Assembly (NCBI RefSeq): GCF_036373705.1
Contig: NC_089850.1
Coordinates: 18,085,256-18,149,255 of the forward strand
Direction: 5' to 3'
DNA: 64,000 nucleotides
Source of the DNA: Amia ocellicauda
Lineage: Eukaryota > Chordata > Actinopteri > Amiiformes > Amiidae
Part shown: one piece after another, positions 3,760-40,985 of the stretch
How the letters are laid out: each line of letters opens with the position of its first letter
How positions within the stretch are numbered: the stretch's first letter is position 1
Position numbers and translations under genes: made by a program
Notes under the pieces: generated by a model
The model's input: only the letters and a program-made list of their open reading frames with translations
What the model was told of the DNA's origin: nothing
Databases searched by the model: none

Positions 3760-6700
3760 ATGGCGGCGCCGCTAGCGCAGTTCGACGAGGACTGGCAGGA
3801 CTTCTACGAATTCAAGCCGGCCTCGGGGCCCCAGAGCCGCCTGGACCAGATGAACTCTAACGTGGCAGGGGATGCGCCGCCGGGCCTGCTGGAGGACTTC
3901 TCCGAGCTGGACAACAGCTTCTCCGGCGAGATCGGCAGCTTCAAGTCCATGGAGGACCTGGTCAACGACTTCGACGAGAAGCTGACCGTGTGTTTCCGCA
4001 ACTACAACACCAAGACGGAGAACATCGCGCCGGTCAAGCCCATCACCGAGGACAGCGTCATGAAGGACGACGAGTGAGTGTCCGGCCGGCAAACACCCCT
4101 TTAATTAGGATCTACACCCCTTTAATGGGACGCCCGTGTAGCAGGGTTACCTTAAGCCACTCACTCGCATCTTAATAATAACAATATAGTACTCATTAAT
4201 AAGTGACTGACAACACTCTCGGCTCTGGTGTTGCTTCCTCTTTATTGGTTGTATTTATTTGTCCATAACGATGACTGGCTTCCTTCTCCTGTGGCTGATT
4301 TGGTATTAAAGTTAAAGGTAAAGCGTGCAGCTGCCATTGAGCTTGAACAGGAGTTAGCCAGGGGGCTGTTTCGGCAACGCGCATTGTCCTGTGCGACTGT
4401 GTGGGTATCGTAATAAACACCGGTTTCTGGTCAGTAAGCATTGGAAACAGATCCGTGTCCTGTATAGAGGAAGTGCAGCTGGATTTCAAGGCCAACCTTG
4501 CTGATAATTTGCCCTTTTTCCCGGGTTGGCATTCCTGGCATCGCCAGAGAGAGGACCCCGGGTTTGAAAGACTTTGGCAGTGCTTTAGTTGTGACGTCAT
4601 AAATTGCGCCCAACTTTTTGTTTGCGTTTTTGTAATGCATTCTGGTTGAATTGGTCTGTTTCACTGAGGAGACCGACAGTTGATACATAGGGTTTGTACA
4701 CTGTAGTGTGTTTGTCAATCTTCTCATCTGTAGGCTACTCACTGATCATGATTTTTGGTTGTAGACTAGATGGTATTGAATCTGAATTATGCTGACATCA
4801 ATTGGGGGGCAGTGCAGTTGTTTTTAAGGATATGTCCTAAGTTAGGACTGTAAATACCAGGGCTCAGTGCAGACATACAGGACAGCAGCAACAGTGGAGT
4901 AGTATATACAGCTCTGGAAGAAATGAAGAGACCACTGCACATTTGTCTTAAATCAGCATCTCTACATGTATGGCAGCCGTTCCATTCCAGTCATGTTTTT
5001 ATATGGAATTTGGGAGAAATATTGTCAGTAAAACAAAAAATGTTCATTTTACCCAAACACCTAACTATGCATAGTAAAACCAGAGAAACTGATAATTTTG
5101 CACCGGTCTCTTCATTATTTCCAGAGCTGTATATTTCCCCCAATAATATTTTTGAAAGACTGTCCCTAGTACAAGCGCCTATATTTTGGCAAGCACCATT
5201 AACATTTGACTGTGGTTTAAATCCAGGAACCCACAGCATTGAGAAGGTGTGTGTGTGGGGGGGTATTGCTAGGTTAGGGAATGGGAATTGCTTGGACTGA
5301 TTTGCAGCCTTTATAGATCATGCGCCTGGAGCTGAGTTTGCAGGGCGCTTGTGGTTGAGTGAATCAGCCTGCGTTCTGTCCCTTGAGGTGCAGGTTTAAA
5401 CCACATTGCTCTTAAGCTTTGCAAATGTAGGGGCCAACATTGAAATGATCAGGCAAGTTCCACAGAGCAGGACCGGGGCTTGTATGGCTGTTGGAAGGTG
5501 TGTGGTTGGCAGGTCTGTCTGAAGGACAGAACTTACATACGACCCTGCAACCTGTTTCAAATGACTGGACGGTATTTACATACACATTTGACATGGTTTT
5601 GCAACTTTCGCTTGTTTTTAAATGCTATTGAAAATACTTGTCTTTCAGAATATGCGATTACCAAGTGAAATGCAAAAAGTTAAAGTTTTACAGTTAAATG
5701 GCTTTTGTGTTGGTTGTGCGAGTTGCAACGGAAGAGCCATCAAAACCGATCAAATTTAATGTTTTCTGGCTATTCCCATTGAAGAACTAAATCTTAATTT
5801 TGAACCATTTATTTTTTTACTCTTATCATGTAGTGTCGTCAGATTCATATTACTGATTAATAAAATCTGATGGTGAGGTTGTATACACCGCTAACTTGCA
5901 CTGACATTCTCGGCAAACCCTGTAATCCCAATGCCCCCGTGCTGTGGCCTCTGCAGACTCATTATTGTTGAGACTTTGAGAGACTGAATCTTTCACTTTG
6001 AAACTCAGTCTCAGTCATATTTAAAAGAAAACTGCTAGTGTGTAAAGTGGTTTGTATGCTTAAGAGGATTTTCTCTCTTTAAAGGAAGGGAAAACTTATT
6101 TGTTCCAACTCCAGATCAGTTCTCTGTGATTTTGCAGGATAGAAGGCTGATGTGATGATAAAAAACCAATTAACCAAGGCCCTGTACTGGGAATTTTTCA
6201 TGTTACCATTATGATTTAGTCTTCCTTCAACTTATTTAACAAGTATTCATGACGGATGTGATTTTCATGCATTTCTTGGCTGAATCTGACATATTCCATG
6301 AAACCAGCGTGTTAAAGCATTTTTCATTTGTATAGATCATGGGCATTAATTATGTGCAATGTTTTGTTTGATACATTGTTTTATTTCACAGAAAGCATTG
6401 CAAATTGTGACCTGTAAGACAATTTTCCTAACTAGAATATGTTTGTTTTCAAAGAATAGTTTGTTTTCAAGATTTGCAGTAGAGTGCAATGGTTTTGATT
6501 GGATACATTTAAATAAAGGAATAGAAAAGGTTGAAGTTCAAGGTGTGCTAAGTTTGGAAATATTAGTGTGTTCCCTGTTACTGAAAATGTTTGGTAAACA
6601 TGCAAGTATCTTAAACCTCCAGTCCTCAAATTCTATTTTCAGAAAGACTCAAGGGGAAGATCTAGAAATATTATCATTCAGAAGCACCTGTAAGGAAGCA

Positions 6701-9700: not shown

Positions 9701-12700
9701 CTTTCCAGAGTCTGAGAGATCCAACTATTAACAAGTCTGTTGGACCAAACCTGTGCTTACCTTGAGGAAGTTTTTCGGCTGGATTGCTTCTTTAACCTCA
9801 ATGTTTTGCTGATTAAGAATAGTTTTATTCTTCCCTCTGATGAATCTCATTAACCTATTTATTTTAATTGGCGTATTGACCATCCAGTGATGGGAGAAGG
9901 TTTTGTCAATGCAAAGTCTACACAGCTGGTGCCTTGAATGATTTTTGCCCAGAACCCCAAAGGCCCCACACGGGCAACCCCAGAGCCACGGACTAACCGA
10001 TGGGTTGTTGTTGTTTTTCACAGTTCGTAGACTCCCAACAACAAAGCTTCCCCCAGAGAATTCTTACACACGCGTCTGCTTGCCACAGGCTTCTAGATCA
10101 AGCTAGATCATACAGAAGGCTTGGAAGAAACAAAACCGAGGATTTGAAACATATAAATAAATGGAATGCTAGTTATTTTAAAGCATGCTTTGTTCGTATC
10201 GGCAGCTGCTTCCATGGACGATGTAGTGACTACACTGGAGGATGGTCTATCTTGAAATGTGGATCACTCGCTTGTTCTTGCTGTCTTTACTGTGCATGTG
10301 TGACAGGATTGACACGAGCGTGACTGACATTAAATCGGGCTCAGCCCCAGACTTTAAGGCTTAGATGTCTGTAACTGATTCCAGGGTGCTAGGCTGGACC
10401 CAAAAGCCATCTATCATTCCCCCACTCCTCCTCTCCCACCGGCACATCACAGCAGGCCTTAATGAGGCCCTTTCAGTCAGTTTAAGATGCTTTCAGGGGG
10501 GACCCTTTTTATATTGTAATTGCCTTCTAGGAAACAAATTATCACCCAATAGAGACTCTCTCTGTTGGCGCTTCTTAAATAATGACTGTTGTGTAGGGTC
10601 TTGTTACCTCCTTTCTTGTGTTGCTGTTCTTCATGGCTGTGTGTAAGACAGATACGCCTATTATTACAGTTATCTTTAGTGGATAGCCTGCGTTCTGCAT
10701 TTTATTCATCTCCGCCACGGTACAGTCTCTGAGCTGTCATCTACATGATTAACCTCCGTAACCTTTCTCCAGTTATAGAGCGATGTGCATTGAAATGAGC
10801 CAGGGCAAAAAGCAAACGCCACCTTCTTTATTATCCGCCTGCTTGCTGTGCAGAGATGCTGGACTGTCGTCACACTCTGTGGTACCACAATCAAATGGGT
10901 ACGGCACAAAACAGTAGTTCATGTTTCCTGGGAGGGGCATAGAATTGAATTGAAATTGAAGAACAAAGGGTTGGAAAATGTGTGCTTATTTGTTTGGCCA
11001 TTTGTTTGTTAGCTTTTAGTTGGTCTTGAATTGTTGCAATGTCCAGAATAATGCTTCCAAGTAAGTGTCAACCTGTATCCAATGTAATTATTTTTGATTG
11101 TTTTTTGTACAAATAATCCTGAACACATTGGATCTCTTCTGCTTTAGCCACCATTCCTCCTGTACCTACACTGCAGCAGCACTCTGGCTATATAACTGGC
11201 CTGGGGCAGTTTGTTTGTGGTTATGGACAGTCATCCCCTCTAGGATGAAGAATGAGCTGCTTCAGTGAAAAGTGCTCATACACCCCCCACCCCCTTTTTT
11301 ATTATATCTGACAGGTTCCAGTCCTTTTTATTTCTAAAGTGATTCATCTTGCTGCATCTGAATGGCTTTGCTTGGTTTAAGGATATTTATGCTCTGTTTG
11401 CTTCAGAGAGCAAAAGAGATGCATACATATTGGTGGGTAGATAAAATGTGATTTATTGCAAGCTGCAATCTTAACAAAGGCCGAGAATTCGTCTGCACTG
11501 TCTGGTGGAGGAAGGTCCCTCAGGGAATGAATTTTACAGATCACATCCAAAAAGGTGCCATTTTACTCCGCTTGTTACTATTGTTGTTCTTATGAATAAA
11601 TATTTCTTAGGATGATAATAGTTGTGACCTGGTTTTAGTCTTCCTTGCTTTCCACTCCAGAGGCGATTGTGCATTTATTTCATGGCTACAAATTCAAAGC
11701 TTCTCTTTTTAGGACATACTGCCCTCTTAAAAACAAATTTAAAAAGAAACAGCATTCAGAAAAGTCGTCACCTGTCTTATTACAGAAAAATGTTCAGTCT
11801 TCCGTTGTCTGGAGGGATAATGTTAAGCCTCTTCTCTATTACAATGGGCTTCAGAGGTCCTTCAAACTGACTGACTAAATTTACAGGACAGCCAACTTGG
11901 GATTGGTCTTTATATAGGTAGATTAGATATAGAGATATACAGTACAGTGCAAAGGTTTTAGGCAGGTGTGAAAGAATGCTGTAAAGTAAGAATGCTTTCA
12001 AAAATAGACATGTTAATAGATTATATGTATCCATTATGCAAAGTGAGTGAACAGAAGAAAAATCTACATCAAATACATATTTGGTGTGACCACCCTTTGC
12101 CTTCAAAACAGCATCAATTCTTCTAGGTACACTTGCACACAAAGTCAGGGATTTTGTAGGTATATAGTCAGGTGTCTGATTAAACAATTATACCAAACTG
12201 GTGCTAATGATCATCAATTCAATATGTTTGGTGAAACACAATAATTAACTTAAACACAAACAGCTGTGTAGGAGGAATAAAACTGGGTGAGGAACAGCCA
12301 AACTCAGCTAACAAGGTGAGGTTGTTGAAGACAGTTTACTGTCAAAAGTCATACACCATGGCAAGACTGAGCACAGCAACAAGACACAAGGTAGTTCTTC
12401 TGCATCAGCAAGGTCTCTCCCAGGGAGACATTTCAAGGCAGACAGGGGTTTCCAGATGTGCTGTCCAAGCTCTTTTGAAGAAGCACAAACAAACAGGCAA
12501 CTTTGAGGATTGTAGATGCAGTGGTCGGCCAAGGAAACTTACTGCAGCAGATGAGACAAATCATGCTGACTTCCCTTCCCAATCTGAAGATGTCCAGCAG
12601 TGCCATCAGCTCAGAATTGGCAGAATACAGTGGGACCCTGGTACACCCATTTACTGTCCAGAGAAGTCTGGTCAGAAGTGGCCTTCATGGATGACTTTTG

Positions 12701-14837
12701 GCCAAAAAGCCATACCTCTGATGTGGCAACAAGGCCAAGCAACTGAACTATGCACGAAAACACAGGAACTGGGGTGCAGAAAAATGGCAGCAGGTGCTCT
12801 GGACTGATGAGTCAAAATGTGAAATATTTGGCTGTAGCAGAAGGCAGTTTGTTCACCGAAGGGCTGGAGAGCAGTTCACGAATAAGTGTCTGCAGGCAAC
12901 AGTGAAGCATGGTGGAGGTTCCTTGCAAGTTTGGGGCTGCATTTCTGCAAATGGAATTGGGGATTTGGTCAGAATGAATCGTCTTCTCAATGCTGAGAAG
13001 TACAGGCAGATACTTATCCATCATGCAATACCATCAGGGAGGCATCTGATTGGCCCCAAATTTATTCTGCAGCATGACAACAACCCCAGACATACACTCA
13101 CCTAAAGGATTATTAGGAACACCATACTAATACTGTGTTTGACCCCCTTTCGCCTTCAGAACTGCCTTAATTCTACGTGGCATTGATTCAACAAGGTGCT
13201 GAAAGCATTCTTTAGAAATGTTGGCCCATATTGATAGGATAGCATCTTGCAGTTGATGGGGATTTGTGGGATGCACATCCAGGGCACGAAGCTCCCGTTC
13301 CACCACATCCCAAAGTTGCTCTATTGGGTTGAGATCTGGTGACTGTGGGGGCCAGTTTAGTACAGTGAACTCATTGTCATGTTCAAGAAACCAATTTGAA
13401 ATGATTCGACCTTTGTGACATGGTGCATTATCCTGCTGGAAGTAGCCATCAGAGGATGGGTACATGGTGGTCATAAAGGGATGGACATGGTCAGAAACAA
13501 TGCTCAGGTAGGCCGTGGCATTTAAACGATGCCCAATTGGCACTAAGGGGCCTAAAGTGTGCCAAGAAAACATCCCCCACACCATTACACCACCACCACC
13601 AGCCTGCACAGTGGTAACAAGGCATGGTGGATCCATGTTCTCATTCTGTTTACGCCAAATTCTGACTCTACCATCTGAATGTCTCAACAGAAATCGAGAC
13701 TCATCAGACCAGGCAACATTTTTCCAGTCTTCAACTGTCCAATTTTGGTGAGCTTGTGCAAATTGTAGCCTCTTTTTCCTATTTGTAGTGGAGATGAGTG
13801 GTACCCGGTGGGGTCTTCTGCTGTTGTAGCCCATCCGCCTCAAGGTTGTACGTGTTGTGGCTTCACAAATGCTTTGCTGCATACCTCGGTTGTAACGAGT
13901 GGTTATTTCAGTCAAAGTTGATCTTCTATCAGCTTGAATCAGTCGGCCCATTCTCCTCTGACCTCTAGCATCAACAAGGCATTTTCGCCCACAGGACTGC
14001 CGCATACTGGATGTTTTTCCCTTTTCACACCATTCTTTGTAAACCCTAGAAATGGTTGTGCGTGAAAATCCCAGTAACTGAGCAGATTGTGAAATACTCA
14101 GACCGGCCCGTCTGACACCAACAACCATGCCACGCTCAAAATTGCTTAAATCACCTTTCTTTCCCATTCAGACATTCAGTTTGGAGTTCAGGAGATTGTC
14201 TTGACCAGGACCACACCCCTAAATGCATTGAAGCAACTGCCATGTGATTGGTTGGTTAGATAATTGCATTAATGAGAAATTGAACAGGTGTTCCTAATAA
14301 TCCTTTAGGTGAGTGTACAGCGACAGTCATTAAGAACTATCTTAATCGTAAAGAAGAACAAGGAGTCCTGGAAGTGATGGTATGGCCCCCACAGAGCCCT
14401 GATCTCAACATCATCGAGTCTGTCTGGGATTACATGAAGAGAGAAGCAACTGAGGCTGCCTAAATCCACAGAAGAGCTGTGGTTAGTTCTCCAAGATGTT
14501 TGGGCCAACCTACCTGCCGAGTTCCTTCAAAAACTGTGTGCAAGTGTACCTAGAAGAGCTGATGCTTTTTTGAAGGCAAAGGGTGGTCACACCAAATATT
14601 GATTTGATGTAGATTTTTCTTCTGTTCACTCACTTTGCATTTAGTTAATTGATAAATATAATATATTAACGTCTATTTTTGAAAGCATTCTTTACAGCAT
14701 TTATTCACACCTTTTTCACACAAAATGTTGCACATTACTGTGTATGTATGTATGTACGTATGTATGGATGGATGTATGTGTGTTTTATATATGTATGTGT
14801 GTGTGTATGTATGTGTGTGTATATATATATGTATATG

Positions 14838-14873
<36 letters not shown>

Positions 14874-17800
14874 GTATAATAATTATGTACTTATTTAATT
14901 ATTCTTTCCCCCATTCGAATATCATCTGATTCATAATGGAGGAAGTCGATTCTTGCACATCTGGCTTTGCTATGTTCTGTCTTTGCCTTTGGTGGTTTGA
15001 ATCTGCCAAAATAGTGTCAACAAAGAAATCAGTATTTTGCAAAAACTGCCAATGAAATTAGGAATCTGACATACAACTATTCTAATACTATAGATTTTTC
15101 AGCAAAAGTGATTAGTTCTATAAGTGTTTTTGGTTGTTGTTGCTTGTTTGTTTTATTACTTTGCATCATGTGTGTCTGCATGCATTTGCCATTCTTGGTA
15201 AATTGTAGCAAAGTGAAGTAAGTTTGGAGCTGTTTGACACTGCCTCCCTCCGTCACTGTGCTGTTGCTGAAAGGGATTGTCCTTGAAAACAGCAGCAGCA
15301 AGGTAGCAGTGCTTATAGAGCAGCACACACTGAAAGTCACTTCCTTTTGCCGTTTCTCAAGGCAGTGTCCTAGTTAGCACGGCTTACGTAAATGGAGAGC
15401 TGTGAAAAACCCTTGAATCTTTGTTTGACAGGGCTGGAAAATGACAAGCGGTACTCCCATCTCTTGCAGGGTTGTTTTGTGTTGTGTTGAAACAAACTGT
15501 ATTCTGAATTGCTTTAGTACTCAATGCATAAAAACCAAAACAAATGACTGACATGATTCTGACATGACTGAGAGCGAGAGTGAGAGTGTTTCAGGTTAGG
15601 GATTTGTTTGCTGCCTCCTGAAAGTGACAGACATTTTGCCTAGACTAGCGCAAGTAAGTGAAAGAGAAGCCACAGTAGATATCTGACATATTTCAACCAG
15701 TAAATGCAACAATCAAATGGCACATAATGCACATGATTAGACGATAAAAGTAGGATTTTATTAAATACGGCTCAGTGGACTTTTAACAGAGGCAATCAGT
15801 GTGGTAGTTATTCCTTGACAACGTCATTGCAGTGTCAGTCTGGCTTAAATTTGTAAAAACAACGGCAAAAAATCAAATCTAAATCGGGACTCTGTGGTGG
15901 ACGGACCATATGGTGCTATTCATCTGCCACTTCTCTTGAGGAATCCATAGCATCTGTTCCTCGTATGGAGCACGGATTGCAGAGAAAGGGGACTCTGACA
16001 TAACACCTGCGAACAAGACTCCAACAAATTGCAGCACTTGGGCCCGACTGGGGGGAGGGGGCATTGGGGATGGAGAGGAGCCAAGCCCCAGAACTGCGCA
16101 GTTTAGACTCCTTTTCTCTGGATCTGCCTGCACCAGGGAGAGGGGAATGAAAGGGGAGTGTATTCCCGTGGCCGGAGACTACAGCTGTTGTATCATAAGT
16201 TTGCTTGCCAGACACAATTGGCTCTTTCAATCATGCGTATTGTCTGACACAGGGCCCTACTGTACAGAGCCCACACTTCCCTACCTTTTTTGTGTGTGTG
16301 TGTGCCAGTACTGTGCTGTTAATACGTGAAATTAAAATGTCAGGAAAGCCACTGTGTATTGTAAAGCATTACCATACTAAAATGAGCAAGTCTGACTTAT
16401 ACGACACAACACCAAGCACAAAATGGATCACACCCAAGCATCAGTACCTTGTAGCTTCATCTTGCACATCCTGCAGGTAATGTGAGGCAACATGTTTACA
16501 TTCAATCACATAAATAACTTTTCACAAAGCTGTTTATAAGAAAACATGTCATATAGGGGAAGTGACCCAATTAAGCTCACCAAAATCTAAGATTTACATG
16601 TTTTCTTATAAATATGTGAATTTCTTCCCAATAAAGTGGGTATTAAATCAAAGATTAATCTCTCATCTATCTCTCAACTTATTTAATTGCTAAAGTGAAA
16701 AGTCCCCTATTGGCTTATAAGGTACATATGTACCCTTTAAGCCCATGTGTCCCGAATAAGCCCACAAGAGTTTTAACAACAAATACTTCAAATTGTATTG
16801 ATTAAGCACTTAATATTTTATAGATTATTGAATTCAGACTGCACATAACCAACCTAACCAATTAAAATTGTGTTTTTATATTATCTGAGACTAATTTCCT
16901 TCACATGGAATTGTTGCACTTGTAGAGGCAGTTTGCTCTGCTGGGGTGCTGGTTGTTGGGCTTGGGGCCGGGGCTGTTGGGGCTGTGGAAGTCTGCACAG
17001 GTGCTTCAGAAAAAGAAGCATAATTTGTGGACACTTGTCTGTCCACCCGGTTCTGGCTCAGGGAATATTCCAGTGCTCTCAAGCCAGAAAACATTATCTA
17101 GTTTCGCACGGGAATTCCTCCTTTCAAATTTTGTCCCTGCTAACACCGGAATGGCAGTGCAATTCTTTCCTCCATTACCTTTTGATTAAGGATGAATCGA
17201 TCGATCGTTATCGGGACGTTGGCAAAAATATATCGGCTATTGACCGATTGCTTAAAAATGGCCGATATTTGTCACTGATATTTCTATCTGATTTTATTGT
17301 GTCTAACTAAGCATCCAACTAGTTCTATTGTAGTCTTGTGTAGTTTTAACAAAATATGAATGACGAACACAAACTGCAGTGCAGTCACCCGCTGACCTGC
17401 TCTCATTCTATAGGTCAATAAATAATAGGAAAATATTGGATATCGTTATCGGCCCAGAATTCTCATATTGGTGTATCCTTACTTTTGACTTCACCAAACA
17501 CTGTCTTGTCCAGTGGCTGGAGGATGTGGGTGAGGTGAGATGGGAGCCGGAGAAGCACAACCCCATGTTCTCTGGCCTCGGTTGCAAGTGCCAGGGAAAT
17601 ATCTGACGCGTGACTGTCAAAAATTTAAACTCTTGGCAATCCCATGTCAGAGATCTTTGGCAAAAACTGCTTGTCAAAATACTCTTGAAAATTATTCTTC
17701 TCTCTCCATGGTGATCCGCATGAAATTCACAGTAAGCATCCATCGTGTTATTGCAGTCCCTATAATTTTTTCTCTGCCTACCCATTTTGTCCCCATAATG

Positions 17801-28300: not shown

Positions 28301-31300
28301 TCAGGATGAGGACATGTGCAAAGATAGCGACAAGAGGGAGGACAGCTTAAGTACCTCCTCTGCTATTGGGCTTATATATATTTATTTTTTTTACCCCCTC
28401 CCTTAACCACACATGCGTCTTTTAAACGGACTCAAAAAGAATCCAAGGGCGATTTTCGAGCACCCTTGTGACTGTGGGGGTGTGTGCGTCTTGTCCAGGT
28501 CATCGAGGAGATCGAGGAGATGATGCAGGAGTCTCCGGACCCCGAGGACGACGAGACCCCCTCGCAGTCCGACCGCCTGTCCCTGCTGTCCCAGGAGATC
28601 CACACCCTGAAGAGATCCAGCACCAACAACAGCTACGAGGAGCGTGAGTGACTGGGACATGGTGGGGGGTGGGGGGGCAGGTGTTGGGTGTGTCAAAGTG
28701 ATATCGGTTGAGTATTGATTTTCCATCCAATATATATTAAAGTAACAAAAACTAAAAATAAATAGGTACTTTTATATACATCATTTTAGACAATCCGTCC
28801 CCTACTTCTCAATAGATTTTTTTTTCTGTAGTTTTATATTGAGAAATCAATCATTCGATCTTATTATTTATATAGTGCCCCATATACACAAAATCTCAAG
28901 GTGCTTTACAGCATAAATGTATGTAATAGTAATAATAGTCCCTGCTCATGTATATGCTTTATATTAAAAGTTTAAGGAGATAAGTCTTAATGCATCTATT
29001 AGTTCAATTTGGAAGGAGTGAGAATCTACAAGTACATTTCTAACTCAAGGCAGTGCAAATGAATAGCTCTGCACACGCCTCCCGTGGCCCCCAGTGTCGG
29101 CTGCGTGTCGTTATGGTCAAGTTATGGTGCTACCGGAACCCTAAGCTCTCTTTTGAGGAGTCCTTAGCATGCCAGTAAAATCATCCCCAACACTGCCTTC
29201 TACCCAGACACTAATGCACCATGAACGCTGCCCAGAGCATGCGGCTGCAGAGAGGCATAAAGGGCAAGGTTATAAAAATAAGATCTACGGCTCAATTGCC
29301 ATCCAGGGCCCTTGACAGAGGATGGTTTCTGCCCAGAGTCTTCTCAGTGCTTGCTTTATCTTTCGAGTTCTGGATTTGATCAAGGTATATCAGTAATGCT
29401 GTTTGTCAAAGCAGCCAGAGTGTCTCAGATGCTTCTATAATCACTGAACATGGTGAAGGAAATGGAAATAAAAACTGTTACCTAAAGCCCATTTGTGTTA
29501 TCCTCAACTAGCCAGAGGTAAACGTGAACTATGACTGCAAACATCTTAATCCCTTAAGTCATCTTAAGTCTTGAAGGATGATTAAGCAGTATTTCATAAC
29601 ATTTAATTTAATCATCATGTATGTGCCATACTGTGGGAATGAGGAATGAGGTTTCTGCTGAATCATCTTCATCATAATCATGCCTCTTACACACACAAGG
29701 TGGCTCTGTGCTCTTGTTGTCTCCAGCCTGGCAGATACATAGCTTTCACAATGATCACGTGTCTGCTGCCCAAATCTGATTAAGGAGCTCTGAAATACGC
29801 CCTGTAAAAGCTTTAACGGCTTACATTGTTTGGCAGGTGCTGATGATGATGAGTTCTTGGGCAGCTGTGCTGGTGAGAAGAGTAGAGAGTGGGAAAGAAT
29901 CCCCAGTATTTCCTAGTGGGGGGAGCTCAGTGCTATACTGCCTTCCAGGGGGGCTTCCCGGTGATTCTCGGGCTTGTCTTCCATCAGGGGTGAAGCGGCT
30001 GTCCGTGGCAGAGCTGAACGAGCTGCTGGAGGAGGTGGAGACGGCCATCAGGGACTACTCCGAGGAGCTGATCCAGCAGCTGGCCCTGCGCGACGAGCTG
30101 GAGTTCGAGAAGGAGGTGAAGAACAGCTTCATCTCGGTGCTCATCGAGGTGCAGAACAAGCAGAAGGAGCACCGCGAGCTGCTCAAGAAGAAGAAGAAGC
30201 TGAAGAGCGCCGGCCCCCAGAACGGCAAGCCAGAGCGCAGCCACATGCCCGGAACTGTGAGTCCCCCCCGGCGCACGCTGCCCTCCCTTTCTCTCCTAGT
30301 CTGTCTCGGGTGTTTGGGTTTGCCTCGGTGTGTGTCGGGTACAGCTCGCAATCCTCTGCCCCACCCAAGCCCGACGGACGCCATGTTCCCAGGCCCATCG
30401 GTACCACGGGCTCCACTGAGTCACACAGCATGACAGCACAGGCTCAGACAGGCGCAGGCACAGCTTGAGATAGGCAGCCATTTCAGGCATAGAAAAGCAG
30501 CGTGAGGATTCATTCTGTGAATCTGTACCAGTGTACCTGTTTGAATCTTTTGTTTTAAATCCACATTTGATCGGTGTGCTGTGAATTGTGTGGTGCTGTT
30601 GGCATACAGATTTAAATGTAAGAAACCTTTTTATGCCAGCATATCCCCGAAAAGAATTGGGAGCAATCCACTGATGTGGTTGGGGATGCTCATTATAATG
30701 TGACAGAGCTCTAACTAGCTAGGAAACCAAAAAGCAGAATCTGTGATGAGATGAGATGAGATGAGAGGTTTTGTTTTTGTAATTTCTTGCAGTCTCCTTT
30801 CTTACTACAGCACTGTGGCCTGCTCTCTCTCTCCATTTGTGTGTATGTGCCTTCAGTACCAACCCTACTCTTACAATTCCCATAAAATCTCCGCTGTTTG
30901 GACCCTGAGGAAAGCCTAGCAGCCTCTGACATGTCAGTCTGTCTCCCAGGCTGATGTGTGAGCCCTGTCCTCTGGGCTCCGAGCTCCGCTGAGTATAATG
31001 GGCCCCAGGGGTGTGAAGCTGTGACTCATGGGTAGGACTGCTTCACCAAGCGGCTAAAGGGAAACTCTGCCGCTTTCGAGATCAAAAGCCAGCTCTGCCA
31101 TCCTGTAATGTGATTATCTGTGTGTAGTTTTTATTTTTTATTTTTTTCCTACTGTTCTTTAGGATTCTTGAGGATTCAAGAACAGCCAGGCTATTTTTAG
31201 AACTTGCTCTATTTTTTTCTTTTCTTTTTTCTTCCCCCAATTAAAGGGATTGTGTTTCCAAGACTTCATCTGCATTGTCAGCTCCCAAGTCTAATTTGCC

Positions 31301-32268: not shown

Positions 32269-32327
<59 letters not shown>

Positions 32328-40903: not shown

Positions 40904-40985
<82 letters not shown>

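Follow-up and report, generated by a model that had tools for sequence, protein, structure and literature searches.

A probable DD36E/Incomer-type transposon, structurally complete and nested in an older, broken DD38E/Intruder-type element of Amia ocellicauda

In a 64-kb stretch of Amia ocellicauda DNA (the whole of which is called the window below), a structurally complete transposon of the DD36E/Incomer type has very probably inserted, fairly recently, at a TA dinucleotide of an older and broken element of the DD38E/Intruder type, which is itself located within a FEZ-family intron. We assign this reading a probability of about 0.93, a figure that covers the identity and the history of the insert and does not extend to its present-day activity, and the assignment to Incomer is by match to the published description of the family. 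The inner element had been recognized in an earlier, sequence-only reading of this DNA; that its target is another Tc1-type element was absent from that reading and is new here.

Structure of the Insert

The insert occupies positions 13095..14315 with its transposase on the minus strand and is 1221 bp long, or 1225 bp with both copies of the TA target site (13093..13094 on the low-coordinate side and 14316..14317 on the high-coordinate side). Its first and last 29 bases are exact reverse complements and form perfect terminal inverted repeats (TIRs) at 13095..13123 (plus strand, on the 3′ side of the transposase) and 14287..14315 (minus strand, on the 5′ side). A repeat search on the insert returned arms of 31 nt with 100% complementarity, which exceed the 29-bp TIRs because the flanking TA was included. 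By a rough formula, the chance that any perfect inverted pair of 29 bp occurs in 64 kb of random sequence is about 2e-8. Between the TIRs, an open reading frame of 346 codons without an internal stop runs on the minus strand (13127..14167), its stop codon lying 3 bp away from the TIR. The catalytic triad consists of D155 (codon at 13705-13703), D246 (13432-13430) and E283 (13321-13319), codon positions derived from the start of the frame, and 36 residues separate D246 from E283. The sequence-only reading had placed an element with perfect 29-bp repeats and a TA duplication at 13095..14315, which proved exact to the base, and the 346-residue frame with Asp155, Asp246 and Glu283 that it described was borne out as well. 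No further Incomer copy was found in the 64-kb window, either by BLAST or by a scan for the TIR allowing up to nine mismatches.

If the insert behaves as other members of its family do, its transposase would be made from the minus strand, would bind the TIRs through its HTH domains and would cut at the ends of the element with its DDE site, and pasting into a TA would leave this dinucleotide duplicated. Where would such a transcript end? When AATAAA and ATTAAA were sought on the minus strand, from 14315 down to 11900, the insert itself contained neither, and the sole match was an AATAAA at 13066-13061 in the surrounding target element. This hexamer (13061..13066, minus strand) lies 28 bases beyond the end of the insert on the strand of its transposase and possibly serves as a putative poly(A) signal for it; a single hexamer in a scanned stretch of this kind may also be there by chance.

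The Transposase and Its Family

The transposase of the insert matches the Pfam profiles HTH_Tnp_Tc3_2 (1.5e-16) and DDE_3 (3.9e-13), both beyond the curated cut-off, and its first HTH is matched only by HTH_23, at 24.0 bits with a cut-off of 24.6. It aligns with the catalytic domain of Sleeping Beauty, a DD34E element (PDB 5cr4), with an E-value of 4.4e-43, so that by sequence the two share the same catalytic domain. Counted with one script, Sleeping Beauty has 34 residues between the second Asp and the Glu, the insert 36 and the target element 38; the value of 34 that characterizes DD34E/Tc1 is thus not that of the insert. Sleeping Beauty, unlike the insert, is a reconstructed element, and its TIRs are longer than those of the insert. 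Identity is about 37% to Sleeping Beauty and 37% to the target, the insert being closer to neither. The motif between the two HTHs reads GRKC in the insert and GRPR in the broken target.

The type element of Incomer is 1225 bp long, encodes a transposase of 346 aa and has 29-bp TIRs and a TA target-site duplication, and TIRs in the family range from 22 to 32 bp (Sang et al., 2019; PMC6875036). The insert shares with this description an overall size of about 1.2 kb, a protein of 346 aa, the spacing of 36, 29-bp TIRs (within the family range), the TA duplication and two HTH motifs combined with a DDE domain. The identification of a DD36E/Incomer spacing in the sequence-only reading therefore holds, 36 being found here and 34 in Sleeping Beauty, and length, TIRs, target-site duplication and protein size fit the Incomer description. 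The insert differs in its GRKC, a GRPR-like motif between the HTHs being reported for most, though not all, Incomers (PMC6875036). A nuclear localization sequence is likewise reported for most members of the family (PMC6875036). Incomer is published from 154 species, among them 132 ray-finned fish and four frogs, and horizontal transfer has been published for the family (PMC6875036). Horizontal acquisition of the insert, as had been suggested for it, would agree with this published family pattern.

A tree of six rows (the insert, a piece of the target, Sleeping Beauty, a piece of Mos1 and two IS630 transposases) has very long branches, and its Deinococcus row was translated in a single frame from a 1001-nt CDS, so that part of the row does not represent the protein. 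The grouping of Mos1 with the target, at a support of 75, was judged not credible and the tree uninformative; for the insert, the target and Sleeping Beauty, the spacings and pairwise identities alone were kept. A single-sequence AlphaFold2 model of the insert transposase (mean pLDDT 38.6, pTM 0.23) was too poor for use.

The Older Target Element

The insert splits a second Tc1-type element, on the plus strand at 11940..14740, the left boundary of which is possibly 11945. It is bounded by long TIRs, one of about 202 bp at 11940..12141 (plus strand) and one of about 206 bp at 14535..14740 (minus strand), their inner ends being taken from a BLAST match of 11964-12141 with 14712-14535 (88.0% over 184 columns). 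Over their whole length, 181 of 196 ungapped positions are identical, and nine gaps are opened if the ends of the alignment are counted. The left end is preceded by TA (11938-11939), whereas TGTA, and not directly a TA, comes after the right end. A loss of the right end was considered and dropped, as that end pairs with the left one, with gaps, up to 14740. Directly after it, a TGTA/TA microsatellite occupies 14741-14878, a tract that possibly expanded out of the duplicated TA.

The transposase gene of the target (12358..14602, plus strand) is broken into three frames and is interrupted by the insert between the second Asp and the Glu. The frame shifts near 12550-12560 and again near 14440-14446, and stops stand at 12692-12694 and 12719-12721; these positions were read by eye, and two stops and two frame changes are a minimum count. 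When the two flanks are joined at a single TA, the frame of this second transposase continues through QHDNNPRHTATVIKNYL, in the catalytic domain, and it is over the joined flanks that the spacing of 38 between the second Asp and the Glu was read. Without the insert, the target measures about 1578 bp (2801 bp less 1223 bp).

The type copy of DD38E/Intruder is 1588 bp long, with TIRs of 210 bp and a transposase of 341 aa, and in the family the total length is 1.5-1.7 kb and the TIRs may be long or short (Gao et al., 2020; PMC7731502). At about 1578 bp and with TIRs of about 200 bp, the target comes close to the type copy, falls within the published ranges of total length and TIRs, shares the spacing of 38 and also has GRPR. 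By spacing, length and TIRs, its sequence thus fits the published description of the DD38E/Intruder type, in a copy that is broken by two stops, two frame changes and the insertion.

Order of Arrival and Age

Which of the two elements came first? The DD36E element arrived second, because its insertion splits the gene of the target and duplicates a TA there, and the target is older because its frame reads on over the insertion point once the flanks are joined at one TA. The difference in decay is also plain: at least two stops and two frame changes have accumulated in the target, whereas the insert has none. The absence of defects suggests that the insert is recent. With zero stops, zero frameshifts and zero mismatches in 58 TIR bases, an insert that had decayed neutrally would have diverged by at most about 2.9% substitutions per site (95%) if only substitutions are considered and by at most 1.3-1.6% (95%) if indels are included at 0.15-0.1 per substitution, these values being upper bounds under simple assumptions and biased, as the copy was noticed for being intact. 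Relative to the target, then, the earlier description of the insert as a recent arrival is supported by its nesting in a decayed element and by its freedom from lesions.

Setting in the Host Gene

Two coding stretches of a FEZ-family gene are found on the plus strand, one upstream at 3946..4074 (Pfam FEZ, profile positions 1-43) and the other downstream at 29978..30208 (profile positions 163-239). Further FEZ-like motifs stand near 28.5, 34.0 and 38.6 kb, so that the coding stretches of the gene, presumably FEZ2-like, extend to about 38650. The nested pair therefore lies in an intron of this gene that spans roughly 4.1 to 28.5 kb, although an exon may have been overlooked in this interval, since profile positions 44-162 are only partly accounted for. 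The transposase of the insert is antisense to the FEZ-family gene, and the broken one of the target is sense.

The window also contains two perfect microsatellites, TAG x 19.7 at 32269-32327 and AT x 37.5 at 40907-40981, both likely to be polymorphic in length. Rfam at the gathering threshold and ARAGORN, applied to the whole window, found nothing.

Searches for Relatives

The collections searched were bacterial, archaeal, phage, plasmid and viral-contig sequence, with no animal genomes among them and with records of the host's own genome possibly left out. In the viral contigs, neither the transposase peptides nor 23 bp of the TIR, queried for exact DNA identity, had a match, and an alignment-based search gave 131 pattern matches with 0 relatives by tblastn. 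Genome contigs yielded 8 and 85 pattern-matching stretches and 0 relatives, and phages no match to protein or DNA. The plasmids had no match to the DNA; to the protein they gave 18 records, which are bacterial IS630 transposases of 22-24% identity. Four TIR strings, searched as text in the literature, were not found there.

Alternative Explanations

Could the insert belong to DD34E/Tc1 and have come to a DD36E spacing by convergence with Incomer, through an independent gain of two residues between the second Asp and the Glu? Its identity of about 37% to both Sleeping Beauty and the DD38E target, closer to neither, and its GRKC in the place of GRPR speak for such an origin, but the lengths of the element, the TIRs and the protein, together with the spacing, agree jointly and nearly to the base with the Incomer type element, and we regard convergence as very unlikely. 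That foreign DNA was joined here by an assembly error or by contamination is extremely unlikely. There is a precedent in the Intruder copies of a cat assembly that are likely contaminants (PMC7731502); against this stand the clean TA duplication, the frame of the target that continues over the joint, a window with zero N and FEZ-family coding stretches that flank the pair on one strand.

An Incomer-type copy that looks intact and is nevertheless dead, through a missense change or silencing by the host, is compatible with the preferred reading, and we give it only somewhat less than an even chance. Activity is not something that a sequence can reveal, and the family's description suggests only that Incomers may be active (PMC6875036). 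Speaking against a dead copy, the triad is complete and no stop, frameshift or TIR mismatch is present. GRKC, moreover, may be usual among fish Incomers. It is possible that the insert is still mobile, as had been proposed for it. The fuller proposal, that the Incomer copy is still mobile, segregates as present or absent in its host species and takes its poly(A) signal from the AATAAA in the older Intruder element, seems quite unlikely to us.

Implications

Nested Tc1 elements are commonplace, and Incomer, Intruder and their shared hosts have already been described; in this respect the finding is an ordinary one. Among the species with Intruder, 83 of 143 also have Incomer (Gao et al., 2020; PMC7731502), and a narrow literature search, confined to main text, found no report of an Incomer nested in an Intruder. 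The locus provides one clean, structurally complete copy of the Incomer type, and the nested pair fixes the order in which two sibling Tc1 families arrived at one locus. If copies of the insert were near-identical to one another and polymorphic in the host, the element would qualify as a candidate natural transposon that is active in a vertebrate. If, in addition, the mobile insert did use the AATAAA of the Intruder copy, one sibling Tc1 family would be living off the remains of another.
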